Source: an uncultured Dyadobacter sp. | GTDB taxonomy: Bacteria > Bacteroidota > Bacteroidia > Cytophagales > Spirosomataceae | Direction of reading: 5' to 3' | Length of the DNA: 23,541 nt | NCBI GenBank assembly: GCA_946481035.1 | Contig: CAMLNK010000001.1 | Location: forward strand, 1 to 23,541 | Shown: positions 1,412 through 23,541 of the stretch, piece after piece | How the letters are laid out: each line of letters starts with the position of its first letter | Numbering within the stretch: position 1 is the stretch's first letter | Notes under the pieces: model-generated | The model's database searches: none | Seen by the model: only the letters and a program-made list of their open reading frames with translations | Told to the model about the DNA's origin: nothing | Program-made: the position numbers and the translations under genes

Positions 1412-2128
1412 ATGAAGAATTCTTTACACACAATTTGCAAAACCTTTGCTAAACACATCACTATTCTTGCAGTAGCTTCCATCGCTTTCACTGCCTGCGA
1501 CGATGCTACCGAACCTGCTGACCCTTACGAATACTACCCGCTCACAATTGGCCATTATGTAGTCTACGACGTCAACCAGGAGATTTATTCTACCGGCCAG
1601 ACGGCGCCGGTTCTAACGAAATGGCAGGAACGGGATGAGGTAGACAGGATTGCTTCGGATTCGGCGGGGATCGTGACCTACATTATTGCAAGGTCAACGC
1701 GTAATACTTCGGCCGATTACTGGCAAAAGGTGAAAGAATATGCCGTGCATAGGTACCCCGACAAGCTGCTGACCAATATCGATAACCAACCTTTTTTGTC
1801 GCTCACCTTTCCGATCGATTCGCGCACGACCTGGAATGGCAACAGCTACAACAGCCTCGACGAGCAGGATTGTTATTATGAGCCGGGAGTTAAAACCGTC
1901 AAAATCGGAGAGCAGTCGTTCGACAATGTGCTGACGGTAGTTGAGCGCAAAGACACGTCGATCATCAACAAGTATGTGACTATCAAGCAGTACGGTTCCG
2001 GCATAGGCCTTATCTCCGATGACCAGACCGCCTTTGAATTTTGCCAAAACGACGATTGCATCGGATCAGGGAAAGTTGAATCAGGCATTCATAAAACGCG
2101 CAAGATCATCGAATTTGGCAACCGTTAG
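1412..2128 (+). CDS. Outer-membrane lipoprotein of unknown function
   Basis: A 238-residue protein with a lipoprotein signal peptide: positive start, hydrophobic stretch ITILAVASIAF, then the lipobox FTAC with Cys29. The residues after Cys are acidic (CDDATEPAD), which resembles the charged export signal that sends Bacteroidota lipoproteins to the cell surface. The mature part starts with YYPLTIGHYVVYDV, a beginning common in uncharacterised Bacteroidota lipoproteins. It contains several Cys (DCYYEPG, FCQNDDC) that could form disulfides. I do not recognise a catalytic motif. The gene follows udk by 24 bases and is probably the last gene of the PorZ-like/udk transcript. No clear terminator is seen between its stop and the downstream promoter-like motif near 2194. 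Confidence 0.8.
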   Translation: MKNSLHTICKTFAKHITILAVASIAFTACDDATEPADPYEYYPLTIGHYVVYDVNQEIYSTGQTAPVLTKWQERDEVDRIASDSAGIVTYIIARSTRNTSADYWQKVKEYAVHRYPDKLLTNIDNQPFLSLTFPIDSRTTWNGNSYNSLDEQDCYYEPGVKTVKIGEQSFDNVLTVVERKDTSIINKYVTIKQYGSGIGLISDDQTAFEFCQNDDCIGSGKVESGIHKTRKIIEFGNR

Positions 2129-2193: not shown

Positions 2194-2223
2194 TTGCAAA
2201 TTCAATTTATCTGTCTAAATTTA
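2194..2223 (+). promoter_or_regulatory. Bacteroidota-type promoter of the lasso peptide locus
   Basis: TTG at 2194-2196, 19 bases of spacer, then TAAATTTA at 2216-2223. This matches the Bacteroidota housekeeping pattern TTG-N19-TAnnTTTG at all but the last base. It lies in an AT-rich gap 40 bases before the precursor ATG, giving a short leader. There is no other candidate this good between 2129 and 2263. It is a motif match only. Confidence 0.45.
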
Positions 2224-2263
2224 CGACGGATACTGGTATTAATCATTCATTAACCGATAAACA

Positions 2264-2419
2264 ATGAAAACATTGACATCGCACTCTACACAGACAAAAA
2301 AGTCTTATCGCAAGCCGGTCCTGGTTCAACACGGAAGTGTTAGCAAGTTGACTAAAGGTAAATTGGGAAGCCAATTAGATGACGATACTGGCGAAATGAA
2401 CTACGCACCGGACGCTTGA
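2264..2419 (+). CDS. Lasso peptide precursor (RiPP leader plus core)
   Basis: A 51-residue ORF. Residues 15-30 read YRKPVLVQHGSVSKLT, which fits the lasso leader consensus Y-x-x-P-x-L-x-x-x-G-x5-T that is bound by the RRE (B1) protein. The conserved Thr30 would be the penultimate leader residue. This predicts cleavage after Lys31 and a 20-residue core, Gly32-Ala51, beginning GKLGSQLDDD. Gly1 of the core could be joined to Asp8 or Asp9 to give the usual 8- or 9-residue macrolactam ring; Asp10 and Glu14 are less likely acceptors. The tail is acidic and contains Met, Tyr and Pro (EMNYAPDA). A lasso-cyclase gene begins 41 bases downstream on the same strand, and a promoter-like motif lies 40 bases upstream. 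The leader match and gene order are seen directly; ring size and processing are inferred. Confidence 0.87.
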   Translation: MKTLTSHSTQTKKSYRKPVLVQHGSVSKLTKGKLGSQLDDDTGEMNYAPDA

Positions 2420-2460
2420 TTTAAGTGACCGGAGATCCTGGCTTTTTGGATTTGTACTAA

Positions 2461-4395
2461 ATGCTGATTCAAGGTGTTATCTCATTAGGAGCAACTTTTC
2501 AGCCACAAAAACGAACAGCAGGGAAATCGATTAATTGGAGTACCGGGATCTTAGAGTATCCAAGCTCCTACAATGAGTATTCTTTTTGTGAGACTACAAT
2601 TGTTGGTTTCGAAGGATATCATCAAAACGATGTCAAAACATGGGGTGCAAATGCTCCGTTTTTGGCATCGTTTTTTGATTTTAGGGCCTACCTCAAATCA
2701 TCCGGAAACAGGCTCGGCATAGGGGTCTGGTACCAGGAGGCGGAAAAAACGCTGCACCTTGCCAGAAATCTTTTTGGCACACATCCATTGTACTATTTGT
2801 TCATCCCCGGCCAGTTTTGCCTGTTTTCTACCGATTTACATGCACTTCTGGAATCGGCGAAAGGCAGAACAAACGTCACTTTAAATGAAAGCCGCCTTCG
2901 ATCATTTCTCACTTTTGGGCGGGATATGTTTATCGACTATAATGGGGACACATTTTACAAAGAAGTAAAATGTGTATTACCCGGGCAGATACTATCGGTA
3001 ACACCCGATGGATGTTCCTCTGCTCCCTACACCCAGTTTCAGCTGCCTCAAAGCAACAACTCGCTGGCCGGTTATGGTCAGCATTTCAGGACACTTCTTG
3101 AGCATGCCGTTCGCAATTCTCTCCCGTCCGACCAGTCGCCTATCGGGTCACACCTGAGTGGAGGTCTGGATTCTTCATCGATCAGCACTTTTGCCAGAAT
3201 GCTGGCGCCAGAAAGCCCATTACACACGTTTTATTATGACACGCAGGGAGCCGGCTCCGACGACCGGAAATATGCCCTGGAAATCGCCCGGAATATCGGC
3301 TCTGATCATCGCGAGATTGTGATATCGGACGACCAGCTTGGCGCGGTCGTCTCGCATACCAGGATCCTTGGATACCCTCAGGCCGCATTTGTTCCGCCTA
3401 CGTTTTACGACGGCGTCTTCAAACTCGCTGCACAACTCGGATGTAGTACCGTGATGAATGGCAATGGCGGGGACTCTATTGTTGGCAGCGGCTTTGAATA
3501 CCTCAGTGTACTCTTCCGAGAAAAAAATTGGCCGCTTTTAAAAGAATTACTTGCCAAACGGACCCAATACTATACCAAAGCCGATCAGCACAAAAACTGG
3601 GATCAGCTGAGCTTCGGGCAGCAAAAAAATATTGTTGAACAAAATTTTCTTTACCACAGGCTCTCTGCATCCATCAGGACAATGAGCGCCGGTCAGCTGC
3701 GCATTTTGTATCGCGAGCTTTCGGCGCATTTCGACCTGGCTCCCGGATACTTTGCTACGCGTGCGCTCCGCGCCTTCGTGAAAAAGCTCAAAGGTTACGC
3801 GCTTCCGCCCAATTCACTTTTGCGGCAGGATTTTCTAAATGCGGCGGACAGCACATCCGGTCAAACGAAGCTACTTTCCAACGCTTTACGTGGCGATCTT
3901 TCAGATACATTCCGGCATTCATTCGAGGAAATTTTCAACCAGCATACGATATGCCAAAACGAGAGCAGGGCTATTCTGGGCCGCCATTACGGATTCGAGA
4001 GCCGTTCTCCCTTTTTAGATAAATCGCTTTTCGAATTATGTATGTCTATCCCGGAAATCGTAAAATTCGGTGATGGATCCGGGCGAATGCATTTCCGCGA
4101 GGCCATGAAGGGTGTATTACCAGAAAACGTGAGGCTGAGGGCACAGAAAGCGCATGTCGGGAGACGAGGAAAAAGCGCTACCCTCCAACTTTACACCCAG
4201 GCGCAAGAAATGCTTTATGATACGAAGGATATCTGGCAGTACGTCGACAAAAGCAGATTTGAAGATACACTCAAATTCCTCCAAACCGACCATTTGCCTA
4301 TGGAAGACTACAACCGAAGCCTGTTCCATGTAACAAGAACGATTTCGGTTGCAGCCTGGTTTGAATGGCTTAAATCTGAAAGAATCCTGCAATAA
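2461..4395 (+). CDS. Asparagine synthetase-like lasso peptide cyclase (C protein)
   Basis: A 644-residue protein of the AsnB/McjC family. Lasso cyclases adenylate the side-chain carboxylate of the core Asp/Glu with ATP, then close the isopeptide bond to the core N-terminus. Visible: a degenerate N-terminal amidotransferase-like domain (about 1-210) in which the catalytic Cys2 of true glutamine-dependent synthetases is absent (start MLIQ); the PP-loop SGGLDSS at 233-239; the second ATP-site motif NGNGGD at 333-338; and FESRSPFLD at 512-520 followed by a Lys/Arg-rich C-terminal segment. A TAA immediately before the ATG (2458-2460) rules out an earlier start. The loss of Cys2 and the adjacent lasso precursor argue against asparagine synthesis. 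Its stop is 4 bases from the stop of the converging peptidase gene, so no B1, B2 or transporter gene follows. Confidence 0.88.
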   Translation: MLIQGVISLGATFQPQKRTAGKSINWSTGILEYPSSYNEYSFCETTIVGFEGYHQNDVKTWGANAPFLASFFDFRAYLKSSGNRLGIGVWYQEAEKTLHLARNLFGTHPLYYLFIPGQFCLFSTDLHALLESAKGRTNVTLNESRLRSFLTFGRDMFIDYNGDTFYKEVKCVLPGQILSVTPDGCSSAPYTQFQLPQSNNSLAGYGQHFRTLLEHAVRNSLPSDQSPIGSHLSGGLDSSSISTFARMLAPESPLHTFYYDTQGAGSDDRKYALEIARNIGSDHREIVISDDQLGAVVSHTRILGYPQAAFVPPTFYDGVFKLAAQLGCSTVMNGNGGDSIVGSGFEYLSVLFREKNWPLLKELLAKRTQYYTKADQHKNWDQLSFGQQKNIVEQNFLYHRLSASIRTMSAGQLRILYRELSAHFDLAPGYFATRALRAFVKKLKGYALPPNSLLRQDFLNAADSTSGQTKLLSNALRGDLSDTFRHSFEEIFNQHTICQNESRAILGRHYGFESRSPFLDKSLFELCMSIPEIVKFGDGSGRMHFREAMKGVLPENVRLRAQKAHVGRRGKSATLQLYTQAQEMLYDTKDIWQYVDKSRFEDTLKFLQTDHLPMEDYNRSLFHVTRTISVAAWFEWLKSERILQ

Positions 4396-4399
4396 TCGG

Positions 4400-7300
4400 C
4401 TAACGAAGAATATTCACCCTCCCTGTAATTGTTTGTTCGGAGCCGTCGCTTTTGCTCACGATCGCTTTATAAACGTAGGTCCCGGAGCTAACAGCTGACG
4501 TCCAATACCAGTCCGAAAGCGTTGAAACCGGCTTGAACTTGTGTTCCAGAAGCTTGGTGCCTCTTGCATCATAGATAATGTACCGGACCTGCTGAACAGT
4601 TTCCATACTGATACCTGTTACACGGAAACGCACGTAGTCCGTGGCCGGGTTAGGCGAAGCTATCAGCGCTATTCCCGCCTGTCCTTCACCTATTCTGAAA
4701 TTAATCTGATACGGATTTACAGCAGTGTTACCGGCGTTGTCCTGCGTATTAACCAGGATTTCATAGCTGCCGGCTGTGGAGAAATTTGAGCGATATTCTA
4801 CCTGAACGACGCGATCTGCCAGCTTGGTAATTATGAGATTCTTGTAAGCCACTTTCTGAAAATCGCAAGTGTTATCGACGCACGGCTTAATGAAAATATC
4901 CATCAGATTGGTATCGGCCGACATAAAGCGGTCGTCGGTCAGGATGAACTTGATCGTCGGTTTAACGCCTACATCTTCGCCATCCTCGATCACCCGCTCG
5001 TTGAAGGTCACATTCAGCACCGGGGCTATAATGTCCTTCACCCTTTCGGCCGGGTAAATATGTTGCGATTTCGCCACTTCCCAATCGACTAACAGCTCCG
5101 CACTATTGTTGGATTCGTTCAATTCCTGGATCACATTGGCCCGGTCCAATCTTACCTGTACCGATTTCAGTGCTCCTTTATTTGGGAAAGTAATCTTTAT
5201 TGTATCGGAATACGGCATTGACGCGACAGTCTGGCTTTTCACTTCGCTGGTGCCGTTCTGAAATGCATAGGTGAGCTCCACGGGTAGCTTCTCATCCGCA
5301 TTGTATTTTCCCTGGTTCTTGATGGAGATCGCGGCAGTCAATGTGGCTGACTTCTCGATTGTCTTATCCGGAGACTCGGAATAAATCAGGATACTTTCGT
5401 CCGGATCAACCGAGTAGTCGGGTGAAGCGACGTAGATCATTTTAAGCGCAGGATCGCCTTGCAGCAATGCCTGATGAACGTTCGCAACTTCGTATGCACC
5501 GTAACCTTCCGCAAAAATCCGTTTGGCAACTTCCATCTGAATTCTTCCTATGGACTGCTTCGACGTGTTCGCATCCAGGAAAAGCGCTGTATAAAGCTTA
5601 TCCAGGTAATTGCTGGTCGAAGAAACATAAGTATCAAAGGTATTCGCGATCAGCGCTACCGTTCCTCTTTTCGGGGCCAGTATCCAGTCGAGTGACAACG
5701 CAATTCTGTCCGACGACGACGGGCTCATATTAAAACGCGCACTGAACACGTTCCCTACCCCGCAGCCATTGAAATACAACAATGGGTATTTACCCTGGTT
5801 GTTATAAGCGCGTGCCGCGTCGGTAATGTAGCCAATGTCGAGGTCGGTAACCGTGGTAGACCCATGTCCGAAATAGGTCAGGAGCCCTACTCCCGCATTA
5901 ATTTCCGGTGTGATATTAACCGACTCCACCTCACTGATTCCCTGTTGTTTTACGAAAGGCGTAACTTTTGCGCCAATGTATCCCTTTTCCGCCTGCGGCG
6001 CGAGGCCTGCAAGAATATTTTTAAGCTGGGTTATTTCGGCCGATGATTTGCCCCCGTTCAAGTGGAGAATATTTTTCTTCCAGCTCACGTCCTGGACATT
6101 GCTGTGCTCGTATTCTTTTACCTTGGCCAGATAGTCGTAAACGTGCTGATTCGTAATTGCAGAAAGCCTTCCGACCGGTATGGCAGGCACTTCCTTTGGA
6201 GCTCCGGCGAGTCCTTCTATCAATAATATGTCCGATCCTGGAAACCCGATGGTCGGAACTTCATCGGGCAGCTCGCGCACCATTCTTTCGTTAAATGTGA
6301 TCGACTTACCCATCAGAAACAAATACTTTTCACGGTTTCCGTCCGAAAGCATATAATCTACAAACCGCCGTATCCCGACCGGGCTTGGTTCGCCGTAATT
6401 AAACTGATCGTAAATGTCGGTGATCTTCATTACCAGCGGAACAAATGCTCCTCCCTCGGCTGATGCACGATAGGCGGCGTACGCTTTCGCGCCTTCTTCC
6501 AGTGTTTGGTTTGTAATGATAATGTAGTTGTATTTCTTAACGTCCGGTTTAGCCAATGCGATTGAACTGATCTTAGCGGCAGCAATAGGGAGGGTTTCGT
6601 TCGTCAGGAGCACTTTTAATGCCTGATCTTTGATACGCGGCATTGTAAAGTCGGCTCCTGTACCGGGAAGGATTCTGGGAACGTCCGGATTGGAGATGTC
6701 GTATACTTTGCTGGTAGCGGAAGTACCCGCAATTTTTACGTGTGTGCTAGCATCCGATGTTTTCGGAAAATTAAATTCAAGGCTCTTTTCAGTGCCAATG
6801 CTGTTGCTCTGGTTATAAGTGATGGTATAGTAAGCCAGCGAAAATCTGTCACGTGTGTCTGATGCCACAGATTTCAACAGAAGCACGCCGCTGCCATCGG
6901 TGTTGAGGTCGGTTTCGGCTAGTTCAAATGAATATAATGAAGCGACAAAATTGGCATTGGGAATAGCTCCGACTTTCCGAACGGTGCCTTCTGTTTTGCC
7001 TGCGTATACTTCAATCGACCGGGAGTTATTGCTCCGGCCGTGCACCATCATTTTCACCTGCGGCTTCATTCCCGCTACCCGCTTCGTCAGTTGGAAGTTG
7101 TAGGTAACAGATTTGCCGGGCAGGACGGTAACGCCCGTTTTGCTCGCACCATTTTCAAAGAAGCTGTTAAAAAAACTGGCCCTGATGGCGCTAAGGGTGC
7201 TAAGGGAATATTCGTTGGCAAAGGCCTTCACGTCCGTCTGCAGATGCGACTCCGTTGCAGCACCACTTCCTGATGCAGTTCCAACCATTTCGGCTCGCGC

Positions 7301-7708
7301 ACCATTGACTTTTCCGACGGTAAGGAAATACGAACTTTCGTCGGAATACAAGCTCGTATAAGGATTTAACCGGCTGCTCATCGGTCGGTACAAAAGCGAA
7401 TCGATAGCGCCGTCATTGGGGACCCCGTAGAACAGAATTTCGTTATTTGCTACGCTGAGAATCGCAACTTGCCTGCCCCGATGCCATAACTGAAGTTTTT
7501 CGGGCTGACTAACCGGAAAACCGGCCGGCAACGCAGAGAACGGTACTTTATAAACTCCCTTCTGGGATACTTTCAGCTTCACATACGGCTGATCGTACGC
7601 AATCCATTCATTTGTATATGGCGCACCCCATTGGGCAAAGGCTCCATGACACATTCCTATCCCAAACAACAGAATAAGTTGCAAATACCGTAAAACTCTC
7701 AGTGACAT
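4400..7708 (-). CDS. C25-family cysteine peptidase with T9SS sorting domain (PorU2-like), copy 1
   Basis: A 1102-residue secreted protein. The signal peptide ends near AFA-Q (residue 25). A PorU-like N-terminal beta region follows (NEWIAYDQPYVKLKVSQKGVYKVP), then the gingipain-fold C25 domain. The catalytic pair is present: His615 in YFGHGS and Cys649 in FNGCGVG, 34 residues apart and close to the spacing in gingipains. After it come a CARDB-like beta region (ITFPNKGALKSVQVRLDRANVIQELNESNNSAELLVDW in overview) and a T9SS C-terminal domain from SPNPATDY (1018-1102). It is probably exported by T9SS and active at the cell surface. Flavobacteria-type genomes name such proteins 'putative sortase PorU2'; PorU itself usually has a different Cys context, so a sortase role is uncertain. 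It is paralogous to the gene upstream (7766-10720). Only 57 bases, mostly a terminator, precede it, so its own promoter is unclear. Confidence 0.82.
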   Translation of the reverse strand: MSLRVLRYLQLILLFGIGMCHGAFAQWGAPYTNEWIAYDQPYVKLKVSQKGVYKVPFSALPAGFPVSQPEKLQLWHRGRQVAILSVANNEILFYGVPNDGAIDSLLYRPMSSRLNPYTSLYSDESSYFLTVGKVNGARAEMVGTASGSGAATESHLQTDVKAFANEYSLSTLSAIRASFFNSFFENGASKTGVTVLPGKSVTYNFQLTKRVAGMKPQVKMMVHGRSNNSRSIEVYAGKTEGTVRKVGAIPNANFVASLYSFELAETDLNTDGSGVLLLKSVASDTRDRFSLAYYTITYNQSNSIGTEKSLEFNFPKTSDASTHVKIAGTSATSKVYDISNPDVPRILPGTGADFTMPRIKDQALKVLLTNETLPIAAAKISSIALAKPDVKKYNYIIITNQTLEEGAKAYAAYRASAEGGAFVPLVMKITDIYDQFNYGEPSPVGIRRFVDYMLSDGNREKYLFLMGKSITFNERMVRELPDEVPTIGFPGSDILLIEGLAGAPKEVPAIPVGRLSAITNQHVYDYLAKVKEYEHSNVQDVSWKKNILHLNGGKSSAEITQLKNILAGLAPQAEKGYIGAKVTPFVKQQGISEVESVNITPEINAGVGLLTYFGHGSTTVTDLDIGYITDAARAYNNQGKYPLLYFNGCGVGNVFSARFNMSPSSSDRIALSLDWILAPKRGTVALIANTFDTYVSSTSNYLDKLYTALFLDANTSKQSIGRIQMEVAKRIFAEGYGAYEVANVHQALLQGDPALKMIYVASPDYSVDPDESILIYSESPDKTIEKSATLTAAISIKNQGKYNADEKLPVELTYAFQNGTSEVKSQTVASMPYSDTIKITFPNKGALKSVQVRLDRANVIQELNESNNSAELLVDWEVAKSQHIYPAERVKDIIAPVLNVTFNERVIEDGEDVGVKPTIKFILTDDRFMSADTNLMDIFIKPCVDNTCDFQKVAYKNLIITKLADRVVQVEYRSNFSTAGSYEILVNTQDNAGNTAVNPYQINFRIGEGQAGIALIASPNPATDYVRFRVTGISMETVQQVRYIIYDARGTKLLEHKFKPVSTLSDWYWTSAVSSGTYVYKAIVSKSDGSEQTITGRVNILR

Positions 7709-7765: not shown

Positions 7766-10720
7766 TTACAACTTGATTACTTTCTTGGTGTATTTATCGC
7801 CATTTACAGTGGTAACTTCAACGATATATTCACCCGGAGAGACGTTAGAAAGATTCACCCGGCTACCAGTGCCATTGTCCTGCACCAACCGGCCGTTGAT
7901 ATCGACCAGCTTCCATTTGCTGATCTTAGTCGGCACGTCCAGCTTGATTTCGAAATACTCAGTTGAAGGATTCGGTGATACCGACATTGCCGAAGTTTTG
8001 TCGAGCTCGACGGAAACAATTCTTGACAATGTTTCTTCCCCTTTCTTAACAGAACCATCTACCATCGAATCAAAATCAACTTGTTTCAAACGGTAGTAGC
8101 TGATGCCCGCTAAGGGTTTCGAATCCGTAAACGAGTAAGAAGCCTCAGAATTTGAATCGCCTTTACCCTCTACTCTGCCGATTTCCTCGAAATTGCGGGC
8201 GTTATAGCTTCTTTCAACAATGAAGTGACTGTTATTTCTTTCAGAGGCAGTTTTCCAGGTTACTTCCACCTTGGTTCCCGCGGGCTTCGCATTGAATGAA
8301 ATCAAATTAACCGGCAGCGGAGCCTCATTGATCAGGATCTTAAGTGCAGGGTCGCCTTGCAGCAATACCTGATGAATGTTCGCACGGTCTGCATCATAGA
8401 ACGCAGCTACGCGGCTGTTCTGAGCAGGGTTATAAGTATAGCCCTTTATGGTTTTGGTTTGCAATGCAACTTCCTGCAAAATCTGGCCAATTGATTTGCG
8501 TTCTTTATCCGTTTTCGAGAAAATCAGCGGATAAAGGCGATCAAGGTATTCGTTTGACGTGCTCGCGTAAGCGTCCCAGGTATTTCCGAATACAACGATT
8601 GCCCCTTTACCAGGCGTGATGAGCCAATCGAGCGAAAGAGGCCGTGAAGAACTGGTATTCTGCGTAGCGCCGAAAAGGTTACTGAAAATGTTGTTCACAC
8701 CGCAGCCATTATAAAACAACACCGGATACTTGGTTGTATTGTTGTACGCTTTGGCAGGGTCGGTAACATACCCCGGGTTGAGGTCGGTACGGTAGGTTGA
8801 ACCATGCCCGAAATAGCTGATCATACCCAGGCCCGTTCCATTCAGTTCGGTACCGATATTCACTTCCTCGATGACATCGGCCGCTTGCGTCTTGATTTTC
8901 TGTATTACAGCTCCATTAAAAGGGGAAGTGTTAACGATATTACCAATAGTCGAAAGATACCCCGAGAACTGACTGATCTCGCCGGAATCTTTACCACCAC
9001 TCACGTGCATCACATTCTTTCTCCATGCGATGTCCTTTTGAGCTTCATAATCTTTTATTTTTTGAAGGTAGCCATTTACCTCGGCGTCTGTCAGACCCGA
9101 AATACGGCCCACGGGAATTGCCGGAACGTCATCAACCGTGCCGCGGAGGCCATCTACAAGCAGAAGATCGGAGCCGGGGAAGCCGACTGTCGGAACTTCG
9201 TCGGGCAGCTCTTTCACAATTTTGTCAGGACGGGTAATTGACTTCCCGATCAGCAACAGATATTTATCCTTGTTGCCATCCGAAATCAGGTAATCTACAA
9301 AACGTTTTATACCGACCGGGCTTGGCTCGCCATAGTTGAACTGGTTGTAGAGGTCCTTGATCTTGATCACCAGCGGCGCATACTTGGTTCCGGGCGAATC
9401 GTTTTGGCGATAGTCTGCATAAGCCTGTGCTGAACTAATCAGGTTATCGGCCGCTACGATCAGATAATTGTAGGCCGCCGGATTGATTTCCTGGAATGTT
9501 ACAGTCGAGATATTGGCTGCCTGAACATTGATATTCTGAGTGTCATTTGTTGTCAGCAATTTCAAAGCGCCACCGTTGCGGGTCACCATCAGGTTGGATG
9601 CACTTCCCTGGATAATGCGCGGCGAGTCGACATTTGAAATATCATAAAACAAGCCGTTGGCCGGAGGATTTAAAATAGGGATTCTCGACTTTGACCCCAA
9701 AGCAGCCGACGGGAAGTTGAACTCATAAGAGTTTAAGCTCTGGGCGTCGATGGTCTGGTTATATGATATCGTGAAGTAACTTACCGAAAACCAGGACGAT
9801 GGAATTACACTCTGAAAACCCAGGGTACCGCCGTTTGCATCATAGTCTTGCGCCGGATCAAGGTCAAAATTCACCTCCAGCGGAGCAAAGTCAGATGTAT
9901 TAGAAGTAGTAACCTGACGCAGGGAAGATGAATTTTTGCCCACCTTGATCTGAACCTGCGCACTTCCGCCCCGGCCGCTCAGCAATATTTTGACTTTTGG
10001 AATAAAACCTCCATGTACATTCTTCGCTGCAAAATTAAAATTAGAAGCAGGGATAGATGGCTGCGCATTTGATACCGGGTTGGCCGTATAAACCGGGCTC
10101 GTAGCCTGAACACCAACCGGAAGCCGTGTTCCTGTTCCGGTTTTCCCGTCTTCAAAAAAACTATTGAAGGTAGTCGGCCGTGTCGAATAGAAGGTGAAGT
10201 GCGTGTACTCCGTCTGATAAGTTTTCAATTCAACCTGATTGTGAAACTCAGACGCAGGTACACCAAGGTCGACCGATGTGTTTTCTACTTCGGCACGCAA
10301 ACCATTATCTGTTCCGATCGTTAGAAAATAGGCACTTACATTGGAAAAGGTGCTGAAATACGGGTTTTTGCGGGAAACCGGCAAACGGTACAGCAATTCG
10401 TCGGATGCTCCGTCATTGGGCACCCCATAAAAAAGTATTTCCGTGTTATCGGCTTTCAGAATGCTCACCTGATTTCCGCGATGCCACAGTTGAAGCTTCG
10501 CTTTATCGGCCGACTGAAACGCCGCAGGCAATGAAGAAATGGCAATACGATGAATACCCTTGGCAGACACTCCTACACGCACCCACTGCTGCCCGTATTT
10601 GCCCGCAAGCCATTCATTCCCATTAACTCCGCTCCATTTTTGGGAAAATACATTGGATATGCCAAGACCAAAAACCAGTAAAAGCACACCAAAAAGTGAA
10701 GTAAACTTTTTTAACCTCAT
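7766..10720 (-). CDS. C25-family cysteine peptidase with T9SS sorting domain (PorU2-like), copy 2
   Basis: A 984-residue secreted protein. The signal peptide ends near VFS-Q (residue 26). The N-terminal region parallels the downstream copy (NEWLAGKYGQQWVRVGVSAKGIHRI). The C25 domain keeps His639 (YFGHGS) and Cys673 (YNGCGVN), 34 residues apart. Blocks FNYGEPSPVGI and LPDEVPT are shared with the other copy. From about 800 there is the linker LPVNLISFNAKPAGTKVEV and a fibronectin-like stretch with SYYRLKQVDFD, then a type-A T9SS sorting domain from SPNPSTEY (915-984), which ends KKVIKL. It is likely exported by T9SS to the cell surface or medium. Sortase (PorU2) or general protease activity cannot be told apart here. 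A good promoter motif lies about 105 bases upstream (10825-10854), and a strong hairpin follows the stop. Confidence 0.83.
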   Translation of the reverse strand: MRLKKFTSLFGVLLLVFGLGISNVFSQKWSGVNGNEWLAGKYGQQWVRVGVSAKGIHRIAISSLPAAFQSADKAKLQLWHRGNQVSILKADNTEILFYGVPNDGASDELLYRLPVSRKNPYFSTFSNVSAYFLTIGTDNGLRAEVENTSVDLGVPASEFHNQVELKTYQTEYTHFTFYSTRPTTFNSFFEDGKTGTGTRLPVGVQATSPVYTANPVSNAQPSIPASNFNFAAKNVHGGFIPKVKILLSGRGGSAQVQIKVGKNSSSLRQVTTSNTSDFAPLEVNFDLDPAQDYDANGGTLGFQSVIPSSWFSVSYFTISYNQTIDAQSLNSYEFNFPSAALGSKSRIPILNPPANGLFYDISNVDSPRIIQGSASNLMVTRNGGALKLLTTNDTQNINVQAANISTVTFQEINPAAYNYLIVAADNLISSAQAYADYRQNDSPGTKYAPLVIKIKDLYNQFNYGEPSPVGIKRFVDYLISDGNKDKYLLLIGKSITRPDKIVKELPDEVPTVGFPGSDLLLVDGLRGTVDDVPAIPVGRISGLTDAEVNGYLQKIKDYEAQKDIAWRKNVMHVSGGKDSGEISQFSGYLSTIGNIVNTSPFNGAVIQKIKTQAADVIEEVNIGTELNGTGLGMISYFGHGSTYRTDLNPGYVTDPAKAYNNTTKYPVLFYNGCGVNNIFSNLFGATQNTSSSRPLSLDWLITPGKGAIVVFGNTWDAYASTSNEYLDRLYPLIFSKTDKERKSIGQILQEVALQTKTIKGYTYNPAQNSRVAAFYDADRANIHQVLLQGDPALKILINEAPLPVNLISFNAKPAGTKVEVTWKTASERNNSHFIVERSYNARNFEEIGRVEGKGDSNSEASYSFTDSKPLAGISYYRLKQVDFDSMVDGSVKKGEETLSRIVSVELDKTSAMSVSPNPSTEYFEIKLDVPTKISKWKLVDINGRLVQDNGTGSRVNLSNVSPGEYIVEVTTVNGDKYTKKVIKL

Positions 10721-11007: not shown

Positions 11008-11601
11008 ATGTTGAAACGACTAATTTTCTTTGCTTCGGTTGTCTTGATCGGCGTGACACTCGTAAACTGTGACGGCGACAAAGGCGATGTAGGACCAGCA
11101 GGTAAAGATGGGGCCGCGGGGCCCGCAGGACCTCAAGGCCCGAAAGGTGATACGGGCGTAGCAGGTAAGGACGCGCTCGGTGCGAGAATCATTACAACCG
11201 GTGCACTGAAAACAGACGCAGACGGAGGTTACGCATTCGGTATCAGCAATCTAACCCCTGCTGACACAACGATGCTTACAAACGCAGGTGTGTTCGTGTA
11301 CATCAAAAGCCAGAACTACTGGTGGTCTATTCCAGGTCCGGTGGGCTTTACGGCAACGGATACTACTACGTTCCACTTCCGCTACGCGCTTCGCAATGGA
11401 CGGACTTTCTTCGTTCAAATCAAGCCGGTTAGCTGGACAGGTGGCTCACCTACCGCACCTACGAGAGACCTTGAGTCTGTAAGGGTAATCCTCGTTCCGA
11501 CAGAGAAATTCAGACGCAGTGCAGCAATCGACTGGAAGAATTACGATGCTGTTGTCAAAGCCCTGAACCTTAACGAATCTGACGCGATCAAAGCAGACTA
11601 A
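11008..11601 (+). CDS. Collagen-like repeat lipoprotein
   Basis: A 197-residue lipoprotein. The signal peptide MLKRLIFFASVVLIGVTLVNC places the lipidated residue at Cys21. Directly after it come 11 uninterrupted Gly-X-Y triplets (residues 23-55, such as GPAGPQGPKGDTG), a short collagen-like stalk rich in Pro and in Lys/Asp pairs. A globular domain of about 140 residues follows (ARIITTGALKTDADGGYAFG to the end), with aromatic-rich strands (YWWSIPGPVGF, FHFRYALRNGRTFFVQIKP). Bacterial collagen repeats can trimerise, so a trimeric surface stalk displaying the C-terminal domain is plausible, but this is inference. I do not recognise the globular domain. The gene has a -7 element upstream and a strong terminator downstream, so it looks like a single-gene transcript. 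Confidence 0.85.
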   Translation: MLKRLIFFASVVLIGVTLVNCDGDKGDVGPAGKDGAAGPAGPQGPKGDTGVAGKDALGARIITTGALKTDADGGYAFGISNLTPADTTMLTNAGVFVYIKSQNYWWSIPGPVGFTATDTTTFHFRYALRNGRTFFVQIKPVSWTGGSPTAPTRDLESVRVILVPTEKFRRSAAIDWKNYDAVVKALNLNESDAIKAD

Positions 11602-19942: not shown

Positions 19943-20938
19943 TTAGTACTTTACAAAATGTGTTCGCTCTGAAGAACCGTCGCGGTATTCTACCTGTAAA
20001 ATGTAGCTTCCCGGTTTAAACCCCGTCAGCGACACATGTTTAGCATTCGAACCGGTCGCCGACAGGCGCTCCGTTTCTACGCCGCCCCCGGCATTCAGTA
20101 TCTTCACTTTCGCTACTTTCGACCAGTCTTTCACATCCATTTCAAGCCGGTCTGCTGCCGGGTTGGGAAAAATAGCCAGCGCATTCCCGTTCCATGACAC
20201 CATTCTGATCTGGCTGAAAGCGAAGCTACCGTCGCGATCAACCATTTTGAGCCGGTAATAGTTGTTACCTCCTATCGGATCACCATCCTGATATTCATAG
20301 CTTACCTGGCCCCTGTTGTCCCCTGCCGACTGCACGCGCCCCAGCGATTTCCAGTCTTTTGCATTATGGCTCCGCTGAATTTCAAAAAAATCGCTGTTTG
20401 TTTCCACAGATGTCTTCCAGCTCAACTGTATGCCCTTTTCCTTTTTCCAAGCGTCGAACCCAACAAGTGTCACGGGCAAAACGCTTTGCGCATTCACGAG
20501 CGTTAGCAACCGGATGTCCAGGTCGGCCACATCCTTGGAAACAAAATGCAGCCCGAGATCCCGGTTACTTCCGGTCATGGTCACAAATCCCGCCTCATCC
20601 GACCATGAATTCGCCAGTTCCAGCAGCGATTCCGTATTGCCATTCAGCTCCGTCGGGTCGTAAATCACGCCGAGATTACCGTGGAAATTGATCGGGTTAT
20701 TAAAAACATACTTCTTATTGATACTCGCATTGGGGTTTCCCGGCACAGGGGTATGCTCAACTGTGAGGGAATAATTGTTGCCGAGATTCAGGTCTGCCGT
20801 GGGGTTTAATACCAGGCTGTCCATCGACAATATTGTTCCGGTTTTCACATACATACTATTTCCCGTGACGATCTGTGACTTAGCCTGCACGGCACAAAAG
20901 ACAAGCAACAGGCTTGTGATAAGTTTATTTCTTTTCAT
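19943..20938 (-). CDS. T9SS cargo protein of unknown function
   Basis: A 331-residue secreted protein. The signal peptide is MKRNKLITSLLLVFCAVQAKSQ. The N-terminal domain (about 23-150) is beta-rich and unrecognised (ILSMDSLVLNPTADLNLGNNYSLTVE). It is followed by the common T9SS linker LPVTLVGFDAWKKEKGIQLSW, a fibronectin-like section ending NNYYRLKMVDRDGSF, and a type-A sorting domain IFPNPAADRLEM to HFVKY (256-331). It should be exported through T9SS and anchored or released after sortase cleavage. Its ATG overlaps the stop of the upstream S74 gene by 4 bases (ATGA at 20935-20938), the classic arrangement for translational coupling, so the two proteins are probably made in fixed proportion. 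A hairpin follows the stop. Confidence 0.85.
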   Translation of the reverse strand: MKRNKLITSLLLVFCAVQAKSQIVTGNSMYVKTGTILSMDSLVLNPTADLNLGNNYSLTVEHTPVPGNPNASINKKYVFNNPINFHGNLGVIYDPTELNGNTESLLELANSWSDEAGFVTMTGSNRDLGLHFVSKDVADLDIRLLTLVNAQSVLPVTLVGFDAWKKEKGIQLSWKTSVETNSDFFEIQRSHNAKDWKSLGRVQSAGDNRGQVSYEYQDGDPIGGNNYYRLKMVDRDGSFAFSQIRMVSWNGNALAIFPNPAADRLEMDVKDWSKVAKVKILNAGGGVETERLSATGSNAKHVSLTGFKPGSYILQVEYRDGSSERTHFVKY

Positions 20939-22068
20939 ATCTCTTCATGATTAAATCTGATTGGAATGTCTTCATATCTTTTCGACAGAAGTACTTTTCT
21001 CCTCTTTCGCGTCGCTGAATCAGGCCCGTTGCCGGCGAGCTGCATCTTGATTTTTTCAACTTCCAGGAGCAATGCCCTGTTCTTTTCCCGCAACTGTTGC
21101 GTCCTTCTCACCAATGCCTGAACAGCTATCAGGTTTACACCTTCCAGATCGGCCTGATTGATCGTCGTGTCGGTACCAATCGTGCCGTAACCGTCATGCC
21201 CGAACGCCTCAAAGAAATCCTGAGCCATCGGGCCGTAATGCCTGAAATATTTCGGGTCCTGTCCCTTGTAGTTCCAGGATGAAAGCGTCATCCTTCCGAT
21301 CTTTTCCAGAAACGCTTCGCCGTCGACCGGACTGAAATTCTCTTTCTTGTTTACATCAGACATTACTTGCCAGGAGTTCCCTCCTGGTGCCAGACTGACG
21401 CCTACATTGAGCGAACTGTTGGTGAAGAACTGGTATCCCCCCGAAAACCGCATCGAAATCTGATTGTCGGCAGAACTAGCCAATTGCAGGTTTTTGGTAT
21501 TATCACCAAATACAAAGGCGCCTGGCTTACCATTGGTAGAAACCAACGTCCCTAACGCCAGTGAGTTTGCCCCGCTGGCTATGGCGGACTCGCCATGCGC
21601 AAACGTACAAAATGCGCTGGCTTGCGAGCTGGCCCCGCTTGCAAATGAGGCCGTTCCTGAGGCGAGTGTCTTCAATCCAAAAGCAGATGCGCCCAATCCG
21701 GTGGCAAAGGCCTCGAAGCCGGATGCAAACGAGTATTTGCCGACAACCTGCGGATCAAAACCGCCATTTCCAACGCGCTCACCAATAGACCGGAATGCGC
21801 CTTTATCATGAAACCATTTCATTTTGAATTCCACCGGATCTGGAAAACCCGGATCGTAAAACGGATTATTATCCGGCGCCAACTGGGGCGTGCTTGACAT
21901 TACGGAGCCATCGTGCACGTGCAACATCGCCTGCGGTTGCGTGGTACCAATGCCTACCTGTGCTTGCGATGGCAAATACATCAGCGATAAGGCCGATGCA
22001 AACAAGGTCCTTCTTTTAATTAAAACTGATAAAGGGGATACAAATCGACTGCTAAAACTAATCCTCAT
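20935..22068 (-). CDS. YadA-head-like surface protein with S74 intramolecular chaperone domain, copy 1
   Basis: A 377-residue exported protein. The ATG at 22068 gives a signal peptide (MRISFSSRF..., ending near SQA-Q, then VGIGTTQP); a TTG at 22098 in the same frame would add ten polar residues and is less likely. The middle has YadA-head-type repeats with alternating SxA/TGLGASA/ASG strands (FASGFEAFATGLGASAFG...), a sign of a trimeric beta-roll. The C-terminal part is an S74 endosialidase-type chaperone: Ser237-Asp-Val-Asn-Lys241 (the Ser/Lys autocleavage pair), SSWNYKGQDPKYFRHYGPMAQDF, TIGTDTTINQAD, then a coiled-coil-like tail (TQQLREKNRALLLEVEKIKMQ). In phage tailspikes this domain folds the trimer and then cuts itself off. 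It follows copy 2 by 37 bases and is coupled to the T9SS gene. Confidence 0.86.
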   Translation of the reverse strand: MRISFSSRFVSPLSVLIKRRTLFASALSLMYLPSQAQVGIGTTQPQAMLHVHDGSVMSSTPQLAPDNNPFYDPGFPDPVEFKMKWFHDKGAFRSIGERVGNGGFDPQVVGKYSFASGFEAFATGLGASAFGLKTLASGTASFASGASSQASAFCTFAHGESAIASGANSLALGTLVSTNGKPGAFVFGDNTKNLQLASSADNQISMRFSGGYQFFTNSSLNVGVSLAPGGNSWQVMSDVNKKENFSPVDGEAFLEKIGRMTLSSWNYKGQDPKYFRHYGPMAQDFFEAFGHDGYGTIGTDTTINQADLEGVNLIAVQALVRRTQQLREKNRALLLEVEKIKMQLAGNGPDSATRKRRKVLLSKRYEDIPIRFNHEEI

Positions 22069-22105
22069 AGTGTGATCTACATTTAAATACCTAAGCAATT
22101 CACTT

Positions 22106-23158
22106 TCATTCGCCGGCCAACAGCGTCTCTATCTTTGCATGTCGAAAACCCACATGCCTCGACATTCTTTTGCGAAGCACCGAAACCTCCCGTTCGAGAT
22201 CGTCGTTTATTTTTTGAAGCTCGTCCGTCTCCTCAACCAGCGCCTGTATCGCAATCAGCGTAACACCGTCCATATCTGCTTGATTGATTGTCGTGTCCGC
22301 ACCGATCGTACCATATTGATCATGACCAAACGCTTTGAAAAAATCCTGAGCCATCGGGCCATAATGCCGGAAAGTCTTTGGATCCTGCCCTTTGTAATTC
22401 CAGGAAGAAAGTGGCATTTCTTCCATTTTTCGCAAAAATTGCTGCCCATCGACCGCAGCAAGGTTCTCCTTTTTCGAAGCATCGGAAACCACATTCCATG
22501 CATTGGCGCCGGCGGGTAGCGCCACGCCTGAAGTCTGCAGGTTATTTGTATAAAACCGATAGCCTCCTTCAAACAACATCCTGAATTGGTGGTTGCTGGT
22601 ACTTTGAAAGTTGAAAGTGCTATGTCCCATAATGAGGGCACCTGTCAAAGAATTGTTTTCCAAATGAGTCCCCACCGCGATGCAATTAGGGCCACTCGAC
22701 ATTGACATGTAGCCTTGCACAAACGAAAAATTATAGCCGGCAATCGTACCCTGTCCACTGGCAAATGCCCCAAAGCCTCCCGCACTGGCTCTCATACCTC
22801 TCGCGGAAGCCCCAAGCCCGGTTGCCAAAACATCAAAACCCGAAGCAAAGGAAAATTTGCCAACGGATGCCGGTTGAAGCGTCGTAGAGTATATGCCAGC
22901 GCCCAGAGCGCGAAAGGCGCCTTTCTCCGGTATCCATTTAAATGCATGATGCACCGGGTCGTCGTCAAAGTTCGCGAGATCGTAAAACGGGCTTTCTTGG
23001 GGAGGTAATGTAGGCGTTTGCGCGAGGAACGTCCCGTCGTATACGTGCAATCTTGCTTTCGGGAGGTTCGTTCCGATACCCAGCTGCGCAAAAGTCATAC
23101 TGCACCCCATCGCATACGCAAACCCCGCCCTAATGAATTTTAATAGCAGTTTTTTCAT
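22106..23158 (-). CDS. YadA-head-like surface protein with S74 intramolecular chaperone domain, copy 2
   Basis: A 350-residue protein with the same plan as its downstream neighbour. The signal peptide ends near TFA-Q (residue 24), followed by the family start LGIGTNLPKARLHVYDGTF. A region of ASG/GLGASARG head repeats covers about residues 95-165. The S74 domain carries Ser225-Asp-Ala-Ser-Lys229 (VVSDASKKENL), LSSWNYKGQDPKTFRHYGPMAQDFF and IGADTTINQAD. The tail (ETDELQKINDDLEREVSVLRKRM) looks like a coiled coil. The N-terminal halves of the copies differ more than the S74 halves. It is the middle member of a minus-strand tandem array, 24 bases after copy 3. I infer a trimeric cell-surface protein; the ligand is unknown. 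Confidence 0.86.
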   Translation of the reverse strand: MKKLLLKFIRAGFAYAMGCSMTFAQLGIGTNLPKARLHVYDGTFLAQTPTLPPQESPFYDLANFDDDPVHHAFKWIPEKGAFRALGAGIYSTTLQPASVGKFSFASGFDVLATGLGASARGMRASAGGFGAFASGQGTIAGYNFSFVQGYMSMSSGPNCIAVGTHLENNSLTGALIMGHSTFNFQSTSNHQFRMLFEGGYRFYTNNLQTSGVALPAGANAWNVVSDASKKENLAAVDGQQFLRKMEEMPLSSWNYKGQDPKTFRHYGPMAQDFFKAFGHDQYGTIGADTTINQADMDGVTLIAIQALVEETDELQKINDDLEREVSVLRKRMSRHVGFRHAKIETLLAGE

Positions 23159-23182
23159 CGATTTGATCTGTTCGGGTGCATA

Positions 23183-23541
23183 TTATCTCTTGCCAACAAG
23201 CTCACGTCTGTTCTTCCGCCTCAATGCAGATTGGGCATCGGCAAGTTGCGCCTTGATCGTCGCGATTTCTGCTAGCAGATCACTATTCATTTGCTCCATT
23301 TTCCTGACCAAAGCCTGAATGGCAATCAGATTCACCCCATCAAAATCCGCCTGATTAATCGTCGTATCCGTCCCGATTGTGCCATACACATCCTGACCAA
23401 ATGCCTTGTAGAAGTCCTGCGCCATCGGCCCGTAATGCCGGAATGCCTTCGGATCCTGACCTTTGTAGTTCCAGGATGTCAGGTTCATTTTGCTGATCTT
23501 TTGGAGGAAGTCTTCGCCATTGACCGGAGCGAAGTTTTCTT
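23183..23541 (-). CDS. S74 intramolecular chaperone protein, copy 3 (N-terminal part outside window)
   Basis: The C-terminal 118 residues of a third S74-domain protein; the frame is open through the right edge (reading ENFAPVNGEDFLQKISKM before the internal Met codon at 23488). It contains LTSWNYKGQDPKAFRHYGPMAQDFYKAF and TIGTDTTINQADFDGVNLIAIQALV, almost the same as copies 1 and 2. The Ser-Lys pair would lie just beyond the edge; only the ENF following it is visible. A short coiled-coil-like tail (KMEQMNSDLLAEIATIKAQLADAQ) ends in basic residues. It precedes copy 2 by 24 bases, so it is the first visible gene of the operon; the promoter lies outside the window. Confidence 0.85.
   Translation of the reverse strand, partial: ENFAPVNGEDFLQKISKMNLTSWNYKGQDPKAFRHYGPMAQDFYKAFGQDVYGTIGTDTTINQADFDGVNLIAIQALVRKMEQMNSDLLAEIATIKAQLADAQSALRRKNRRELVGKR

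Follow-up and report, generated by a model that had tools for sequence, protein, structure and literature searches.

The stretch of DNA analysed here (the window; 23,541 nucleotides of contig CAMLNK010000001.1, assembly GCA_946481035.1, from an uncultured Dyadobacter sp.) carries a short gene for a putative lasso peptide precursor (A), followed by a gene for a lasso-type macrolactam cyclase (C). Based on comparison with related genomes, we propose, with a probability of roughly 85%, that this pair is the substrate and ring-forming half of a split lasso pathway, the other half being a hub of four genes elsewhere in the genome (B1, B2, an HPr-kinase-like gene, K, and an NTP_transf_5 gene, N) that acts in trans. 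Relatives indicate that the window's own organism would possess such a hub.

According to this proposal, A would be transcribed from its own promoter-like region and made together with C at the window locus. The hub protein B1, a recognition element (RRE) of the kind found in pathways for ribosomally synthesized and post-translationally modified peptides (RiPPs), would bind the conserved YxxPxL leader of A, and the hub peptidase B2 would remove that leader in trans. C would activate Asp8 (or Asp9) of the core and join it to Gly1, giving a lasso of 20 residues that K and N may decorate. We infer the trans action, cut site, ring position, threading and tailoring from sequence comparison and, more weakly, an action of the product at the cell surface in concert with two proteins whose genes lie beside the pair, a lipoprotein and a PorU2 sortase-like peptidase.

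Anatomy of the precursor and cyclase pair

The initial annotation, made from the window alone, read the open reading frame (ORF) at 2264 as bearing a full lasso leader signature, and that reading holds: residues Y15, P18, L20, G24 and T30 are present and the product matches the NCBIfam model lasso_leader_L3 (NF033521) with 24.5 bits against a cut-off of 19. Across 53 homologues, the window's included, the columns K13, Y15, P18, L20, G24 and T30 are invariant, which argues that the ORF did not arise by chance; among the homologues from the protein search, those with a named organism all come from Dyadobacter. Mean identity among the 53 precursors is 80% in leader residues 7-31 and 34% in core residues 32-51. 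Judged by its sequence, the ORF has the anatomy of a lasso precursor beyond chance. We assume as a cut-site rule that the leader is removed two residues after Thr30, and the predicted product consists of a leader of residues 1-31 and a core of residues 32-51 (GKLGSQLDDDTGEMNYAPDA) with a Gly1-Asp8 (or Asp9) isopeptide ring. The monoisotopic mass calculated for the core less one water is 2077.89 Da ([M+2H]2+ 1039.95). Gly1 and Asp8/Asp9 are present in the window core; core residue 1 is Gly in 49 of the 53 precursors, and an acidic residue is found at core position 7, 8 or 9 in all of them and at position 8 in 48.

The next gene had been described as an AsnB-type cyclase without the glutaminase Cys, a description borne out by the comparison. 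Its product matches Asn_synthase (PF00733; 1.3e-39) and, as its best NCBIfam match, the lasso cyclase model NF033535 (8e-56; 190 bits, below the cut-off of 525). A protein search returned 123 relatives at E ≤ 1e-10, the best 120 of which were listed. The PP-loop motif SGGLDSS is present in 36 of 36 aligned cyclases, while a Cys within the first five residues is present in one of the 36, not the window's. An ordinary asparagine synthetase or other amidotransferase, with an unrelated small ORF beside it, would also keep the Asn_synthase domain, and many homologues are named asparagine synthase in databases. Such a protein is hardly credible here, and a plain asparagine synthetase was rejected: the N-terminal Cys is missing, the GATase match of the window cyclase is weak and below cut-off, and C has a leader-bearing precursor as its neighbour in all 48 Dyadobacter genomes. 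The conservation of the small ORF next to the cyclase, on which the initial annotation had staked its reading, is evident from the same count.

A working pathway might also exist in which C yields an unthreaded cyclic or otherwise linked product. This would agree with the divergence of C from the lasso cyclase model and with several cores outside the main Dyadobacter group, which would start with Lys under the Thr+2 rule; lasso chemistry is nevertheless matched by the leader, by the B1 and B2 genes described below and by the acidic residue that all 53 precursors have at core 7-9, and we consider an unthreaded product unlikely.

Of 485 relatives in genome contigs, 80 cyclase loci were retained. 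A maximum-likelihood tree was built from 58 cyclases, those of the window and of 57 of these loci; in it, 26 Dyadobacter sequences, the window and one Arundinibacter sequence form one strongly supported group (100/99), with a few long-branched members. B genes are absent from every locus of this main Dyadobacter group.

Putative maturation genes encoded apart from the pair

The earlier description of the locus as one without its maturation partners is correct for the window; in its relatives, B1 and B2 are found elsewhere in the genome. All window ORFs of at least 25 amino acids were scanned with seven profiles (B1, B2, kinase, N, A, C and lipoprotein; E ≤ 1e-3), and the matches were A, C and the lipoprotein only, with none for B1, B2, kinase or N; the presence of B genes inside the window was rejected on this basis. 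As had been pointed out, the upstream lipoprotein gene and a downstream convergent gene, which ends at 4400, 4 bases beyond the cyclase stop at 4395, leave no room for them, but the role of these two genes as conserved neighbours of the cyclase had been overlooked. The pair does not form part of a contiguous A-B-C cluster, either in the window or in the Dyadobacter relatives, where the genes lie apart.

The genomes of 29 of the 80 cyclase loci were searched, and both Transglut_core3 (B2) and PqqD (B1) scored over cut-off in 29 of 29. In the genus of D. jiangsuensis, represented by 48 genomes, B2 (49 matches), C and A were each found in 48 of 48, and B2 is single copy in 47 of these. The hub DNA, 6-20 kb of which was read around B2, was taken from one Arundinibacter genome in addition to the 48 of Dyadobacter. 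The order and strand of B1, B2, K and N are the same in 49 of 49 hub loci, with an extra gene between B2 and K in Arundinibacter, and one Cys and one His of B2, taken as the catalytic pair, are identical in all 49. No profile match to A or C was detected within the 6-20 kb around any of the 49 hub loci. Among the 26 hub loci with 14-20 kb read, 24 have an aldehyde dehydrogenase gene and 23 a saccharopine dehydrogenase gene.

The family assignments were made on one Dyadobacter representative. B2 falls within the NCBIfam lasso B2 equivalog NF033537 (91.1 bits, cut-off 33), and the best family of B1 is lasso_PqqD_Bac (67.6 bits, cut-off 80); K gave weak HPr-kinase family scores and N a strong match to PF14907. 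The nearest solved structure to B1 is TbiB1, a lasso RRE, and no solved relative of B2 was found by sequence.

The separation of pair and hub was measured from 54 A, 55 C and 49 B2 matches, after ten weaker C matches (E 1e-11 to 1e-26) had been dropped, none of which lies within 100 kb of a B2 match by coordinates. In 21 genomes, B2 and the nearest C on its contig are 0.36-4.8 Mb apart, and in 26 others the two are on different contigs. Fifteen of the 21 same-contig distances are 0.55-0.70 Mb, which is what vertical inheritance of both places would produce. In D. sediminis (G005) the smallest distance is 1.3 kb, within an extra divergent cluster, and the main pair is on another contig than the main hub. 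This additional compact cluster (L233) has genes resembling K, B1 and C, together with a B2 match of 26.9 bits, just over cut-off. For the 27 different-contig cases, contig ends force a distance of at least 100 kb in 23 and at least 18 kb in 26, the minimum being taken from the hub's contig alone in 11 of the 27. With A beside C and B1-B2 outside the locus in 48 of 48 Dyadobacter genomes, trans action is the supported one of the three options offered by the initial annotation.

Upstream DNA was compared between the window and 17 Dyadobacter loci (n = 18). A 5' element (TAAATTTACG.CGGATACTGGTATTAATCAT) is near-identical in 16 of the 18 sequences. About 20 bases further upstream of the -7-like box is a TTTG, which we take to resemble the Bacteroidota -33 box. 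A matrix built from 16 of the 18 sequences (the window included, two left out) scored 68.7 on the window, at most 12.5 on the 49 hub loci and at most 8.4 on ten other A-C loci, six of which are from Dyadobacter. A promoter element common to A-C and hub, sought with this matrix at the 49 hub loci, was not found, and the ten other A-C loci lack the element too.

The ratio of nonsynonymous to synonymous substitution rates (dN/dS) between the window and D. jiangsuensis is 0.12 for the cyclase and 0.07 for the precursor, which indicates purifying selection and contradicts decay of the window's pair, another of the options offered earlier and one that we rejected. For C, the ratio is 0.07-0.12 in five of five pairs (dS > 1 in three) and for A it is 0-0.34, on about 50 codons; the lipoprotein gene gave 0.05-0.16 in four of four pairs and the hub genes 0.05-0.19 in four tests. 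A relic RiPP system, in which A and C persist without a product, would be consistent with a window that has neither B1 nor B2 and with the broken-looking genes of 2 of the 48 relatives (G045 and G046). Given that A, C and hub are kept in 48 of 48 genomes, that C and A have the low ratios above and that the window's own ORFs are open, we regard a relic as very improbable. Decay is perhaps confined to those two relatives and is not the rule. One stop was counted in the best cyclase match of 4 of the 48 genomes; the ORFs of G018, G021 and G035 are still 637-653 amino acids long, and the fourth genome is G046.

The split in the wider family and among known systems

In a family sample of 160 genomes, 20 of them Dyadobacter, the cyclase is present in 79. 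Linkage was examined with a limit of 15 kb and with 32 cyclase matches of E > 1e-45 left out. Among the 140 genomes outside Dyadobacter, 39 have both a strong C and B2, of which 13 are linked only, 7 mixed and 19 unlinked only. In 8 of the unlinked-only genomes a single contig carries both C and B2, at a distance of 0.34-6.3 Mb; in the other 11 the two are only on different contigs. One further genome has C without B2 and 15 have B2 without a strong C, although four of the 15 (G090, G115, G116 and G167) hold a weaker cyclase match within 15 kb of B2, as some genomes counted as unlinked (G019 and G029) also hold a weak one near B2.

All six genes are contiguous, as A-B1-B2-K-N with C converging, in four Spirosoma loci (L024, L029, L030 and L031), and the same layout occurs in one Fibrisoma and one Runella locus. 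Other Spirosoma loci miss at least one of the A, B1, B2, K or N matches, at the profile's reach or at a contig end. In Rhabdobacter, at the site that the hub occupies elsewhere, the aldehyde and saccharopine dehydrogenase genes and B1-B2 are followed by A-C, the lipoprotein and PorU2 genes, and then K-N; the Dyadobacter hub looks like a Rhabdobacter-type locus minus the A-C block or, read the other way, the Rhabdobacter locus looks like a hub with an inserted block. In one Spirosoma cluster (L229, the same as L024), a gene for an ice-binding-like protein with a type IX secretion system (T9SS) tail adjoins A.

Dyadobacter sp. Leaf189 and D. crusticola each have two A-C pairs and one B2. Their second cyclase copies fall inside the Spirosoma-type group of the tree, and the second pairs (L038 and L050), which have no B genes in their loci, have apparently been imported. 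We take imported pairs served by a single B2 as the strongest genetic argument that the hub would act in trans. If true, a shared B1-B2 hub that serves imported pairs would explain the gain of lasso peptides as two-gene cassettes.

Genome mining usually seeks lasso enzymes next to the precursor, and the proposed pathway would look incomplete at both loci in each of the 48 genomes. A split lasso operon in itself is not new, as cebulassopins are reportedly, by their title, made by a lasso pathway with a split operon. That title is in the references of PMC13352647 and PMC13381572, and it is one of the citations given for clusters whose several precursors have a leader motif in common. Pseudomycoidin and paeninodin of Bacilli (psm and pade) are described in the accessible part of PMC9266682 as products of lasso pathways with an extra kinase, which in the paeninodin type acts on a C-terminal Ser, and pseudomycoidin also has an annotated nucleotidyltransferase, PsmN. 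The Dyadobacter hub resembles psm and pade as described there in having a kinase-like gene, and psm in its putative nucleotidyltransferase gene, but A-C and B1-B2-K-N lie apart instead of in a single cluster and the window core ends in Ala.

The hub on its own resembles the enzyme set of the linear polyphosphorylated peptides (LPPs), which in the available text of PMC13381572 is a paeninodin-type set without a cyclase. It might accordingly be asked whether the hub has a separate product, a linear phosphorylated peptide of the type of the Bacilli LPPs, with the A-C pair matured by other enzymes or by none. No cyclase was found at the hub in 48 of 48 genomes, and A is missed or scored under cut-off by the leader model in 9 of the 48, so that another precursor could escape it. 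On the other side, no precursor was found at the hub and the A-C pair is elsewhere in 48 of 48 genomes; the leader model exceeds its cut-off 40 times in the genus, in 39 of 48 genomes, each time at an A-C locus, B2 is almost always single, and the four Spirosoma loci carry the same B1-B2-K-N between A and C. We regard a linear-peptide hub as improbable and the split lasso pathway as the better account.

Two other comparisons can be drawn from partial texts. Amoebophilus asiaticus, a symbiont, has a putative lasso gene cluster (Aasi_0899-Aasi_0902) with proteobacterial homologues (PMC8831229, passages available); this too is a Bacteroidota lasso locus, set apart by its description as one cluster. 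Lanthipeptide leader proteases encoded away from their precursors are reported in PMC8960859; what stands apart there is a lanthipeptide protease, and in Dyadobacter it would be the lasso RRE, protease and tailoring genes together. The system is not described in the passages available of PMC12636315, PMC10352776, PMC8831229, PMC13315312, PMC6232779 and PMC11118758. Searches of the open-licence PubMed Central literature returned nothing on lasso peptides with type IX secretion or on PorU2 with sortase, nor did they bring up the genus-wide hub or a partnership with PorU2 and the lipoprotein.

Several points weigh against the split pathway. The favoured product is predicted from genes, as is the hub of the window's organism from those of its relatives. 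C and B1 both score under their NCBIfam cut-offs. In one genome (G050), contig ends allow a distance from A-C to the hub of down to 5 kb. The leader model is below cut-off or silent for A in the nine genomes mentioned, so that it could also miss a hub-specific precursor. No exporter was recognised among the annotated neighbour genes. As for a kinase of the phosphorylated-lasso type, an HPr-kinase-like gene is present in the hubs of 48 of 48 relatives, with weak family scores, and the window core, ending in APDA, offers Ala in place of the C-terminal Ser used by the paeninodin-type kinase. The cyclase ORF of G046 (L305) is only 527 amino acids long, and in G045 (L306 and L276) the precursor frame opens only within the leader and the K ORF is shortened to 236 amino acids.

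Conserved neighbours and other features of the window

The features of the window that bear on the pathway are collected in Table 1.

Table 1. Position and supporting evidence of the features discussed
Feature	Position	Strand	Evidence
Precursor A	2264..2419	+	51 aa; NF033521 over cut-off; 53 homologues
Lasso-type macrolactam cyclase C (AsnB-like)	2461..4395	+	644 aa; PF00733, NF033535
Lipoprotein, conserved cyclase neighbour	1412..2128	+	Cys29 invariant; ORF cluster, alignment
PorU2, putative type IX secretion sortase, C25 peptidase	4400..7708	-	1102 aa; NF052324, PF01364
Second PorU2-type C25 peptidase with T9SS sorting domain	7766..10720	-	984 aa; NF052324, TIGR04183
-7-like box TAAATTTA and 5' leader element CGGATACTGGTATTAATCAT, upstream of precursor	2208..2249	+	Upstream alignment, matrix

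ORFs were clustered across 57 cyclase loci, 56 from the set of 80 plus the window's own. The cluster of the window lipoprotein is present in 45 of the 57 and that of the adjoining C25 peptidase in 47; both span Dyadobacter, Spirosoma, Runella, Arundinibacter and Rhabdobacter, and the other flanking genes mostly vary by genus. The adjoining peptidase matches PF01364 and NF052324 ('putative type IX secretion system sortase PorU2'; 903.7 bits, cut-off 450), and the peptidase beyond it scores 612.1 bits against the same cut-off of 450, with a TIGR04183 match of 39 bits. In many other Dyadobacter loci, as in the window, a second, shorter PorU2-type peptidase is encoded next to the first in a tandem arrangement. 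Cys29 of the lipoprotein is invariant in an alignment of 22 sequences. Its predicted structure is beta-rich (mean predicted local distance difference test score, pLDDT, 88), and the best fold match, 4fvs (E 3e-5; template modelling score, TM, about 0.4), points to a weak YmcC/LolA-like resemblance of the model.

Neither neighbour is restricted to lasso loci. The PorU2 and lipoprotein families occur in 118 and 117 of the 160 family genomes, respectively, against 79 for the cyclase, and a reading of the two as lasso-only genes was rejected. Their pairing was counted with cyclase matches of E > 2e-64 left out, the counts being lower bounds. Among 150 listed lipoprotein loci, at least 53 have PorU2 within 12 kb, and at least 48 of those 53 have a strong C within 20 kb, so that the lipoprotein-PorU2 pairing follows the lasso cyclase. 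Seen from the 74 strong C loci, the lipoprotein accompanies at least 53, PorU2 at least 50 and both at least 48; among the matches listed, 19 of the 74 have neither, and these include extra copies in genomes where another C has the pair. In five genomes (G105, G127, G135, G143 and G157), weak cyclase-like matches lie near the lipoprotein and PorU2 genes with no B2 match, possibly as a cousin system that has other partners.

This gene arrangement suggests that the peptide acts with surface sorting. It may inhibit or regulate PorU2, be handled by PorU2, or be displayed with PorU2 cargo. A functional link of this kind we consider rather doubtful. A more ambitious version, which we offer tentatively and consider equally doubtful, is that A-C, the lipoprotein and PorU2 form one type IX sorting module in which the peptide would regulate PorU2 or be processed or attached by it, and that the hub would mature every A-C module, imported ones included. 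That a RiPP so widespread in the genus is encoded beside a putative T9SS sortase hints at a cellular role and not an antibiotic one, and makes such a role testable.

The remainder of the window contains other surface-associated sequences. A PorZ-like gene, which scores 208 bits against a cut-off of 260, is represented at the window start by its C-terminal portion. Positions 20935-23541 encode, in tandem, two proteins with segments resembling endosialidase chaperones (S74), and a third ORF of similar appearance there is cut by the window end. The protein encoded at 11008-11601 is small, looks exported and has a short collagen-like run of Gly-x-y (PF01391, below cut-off).

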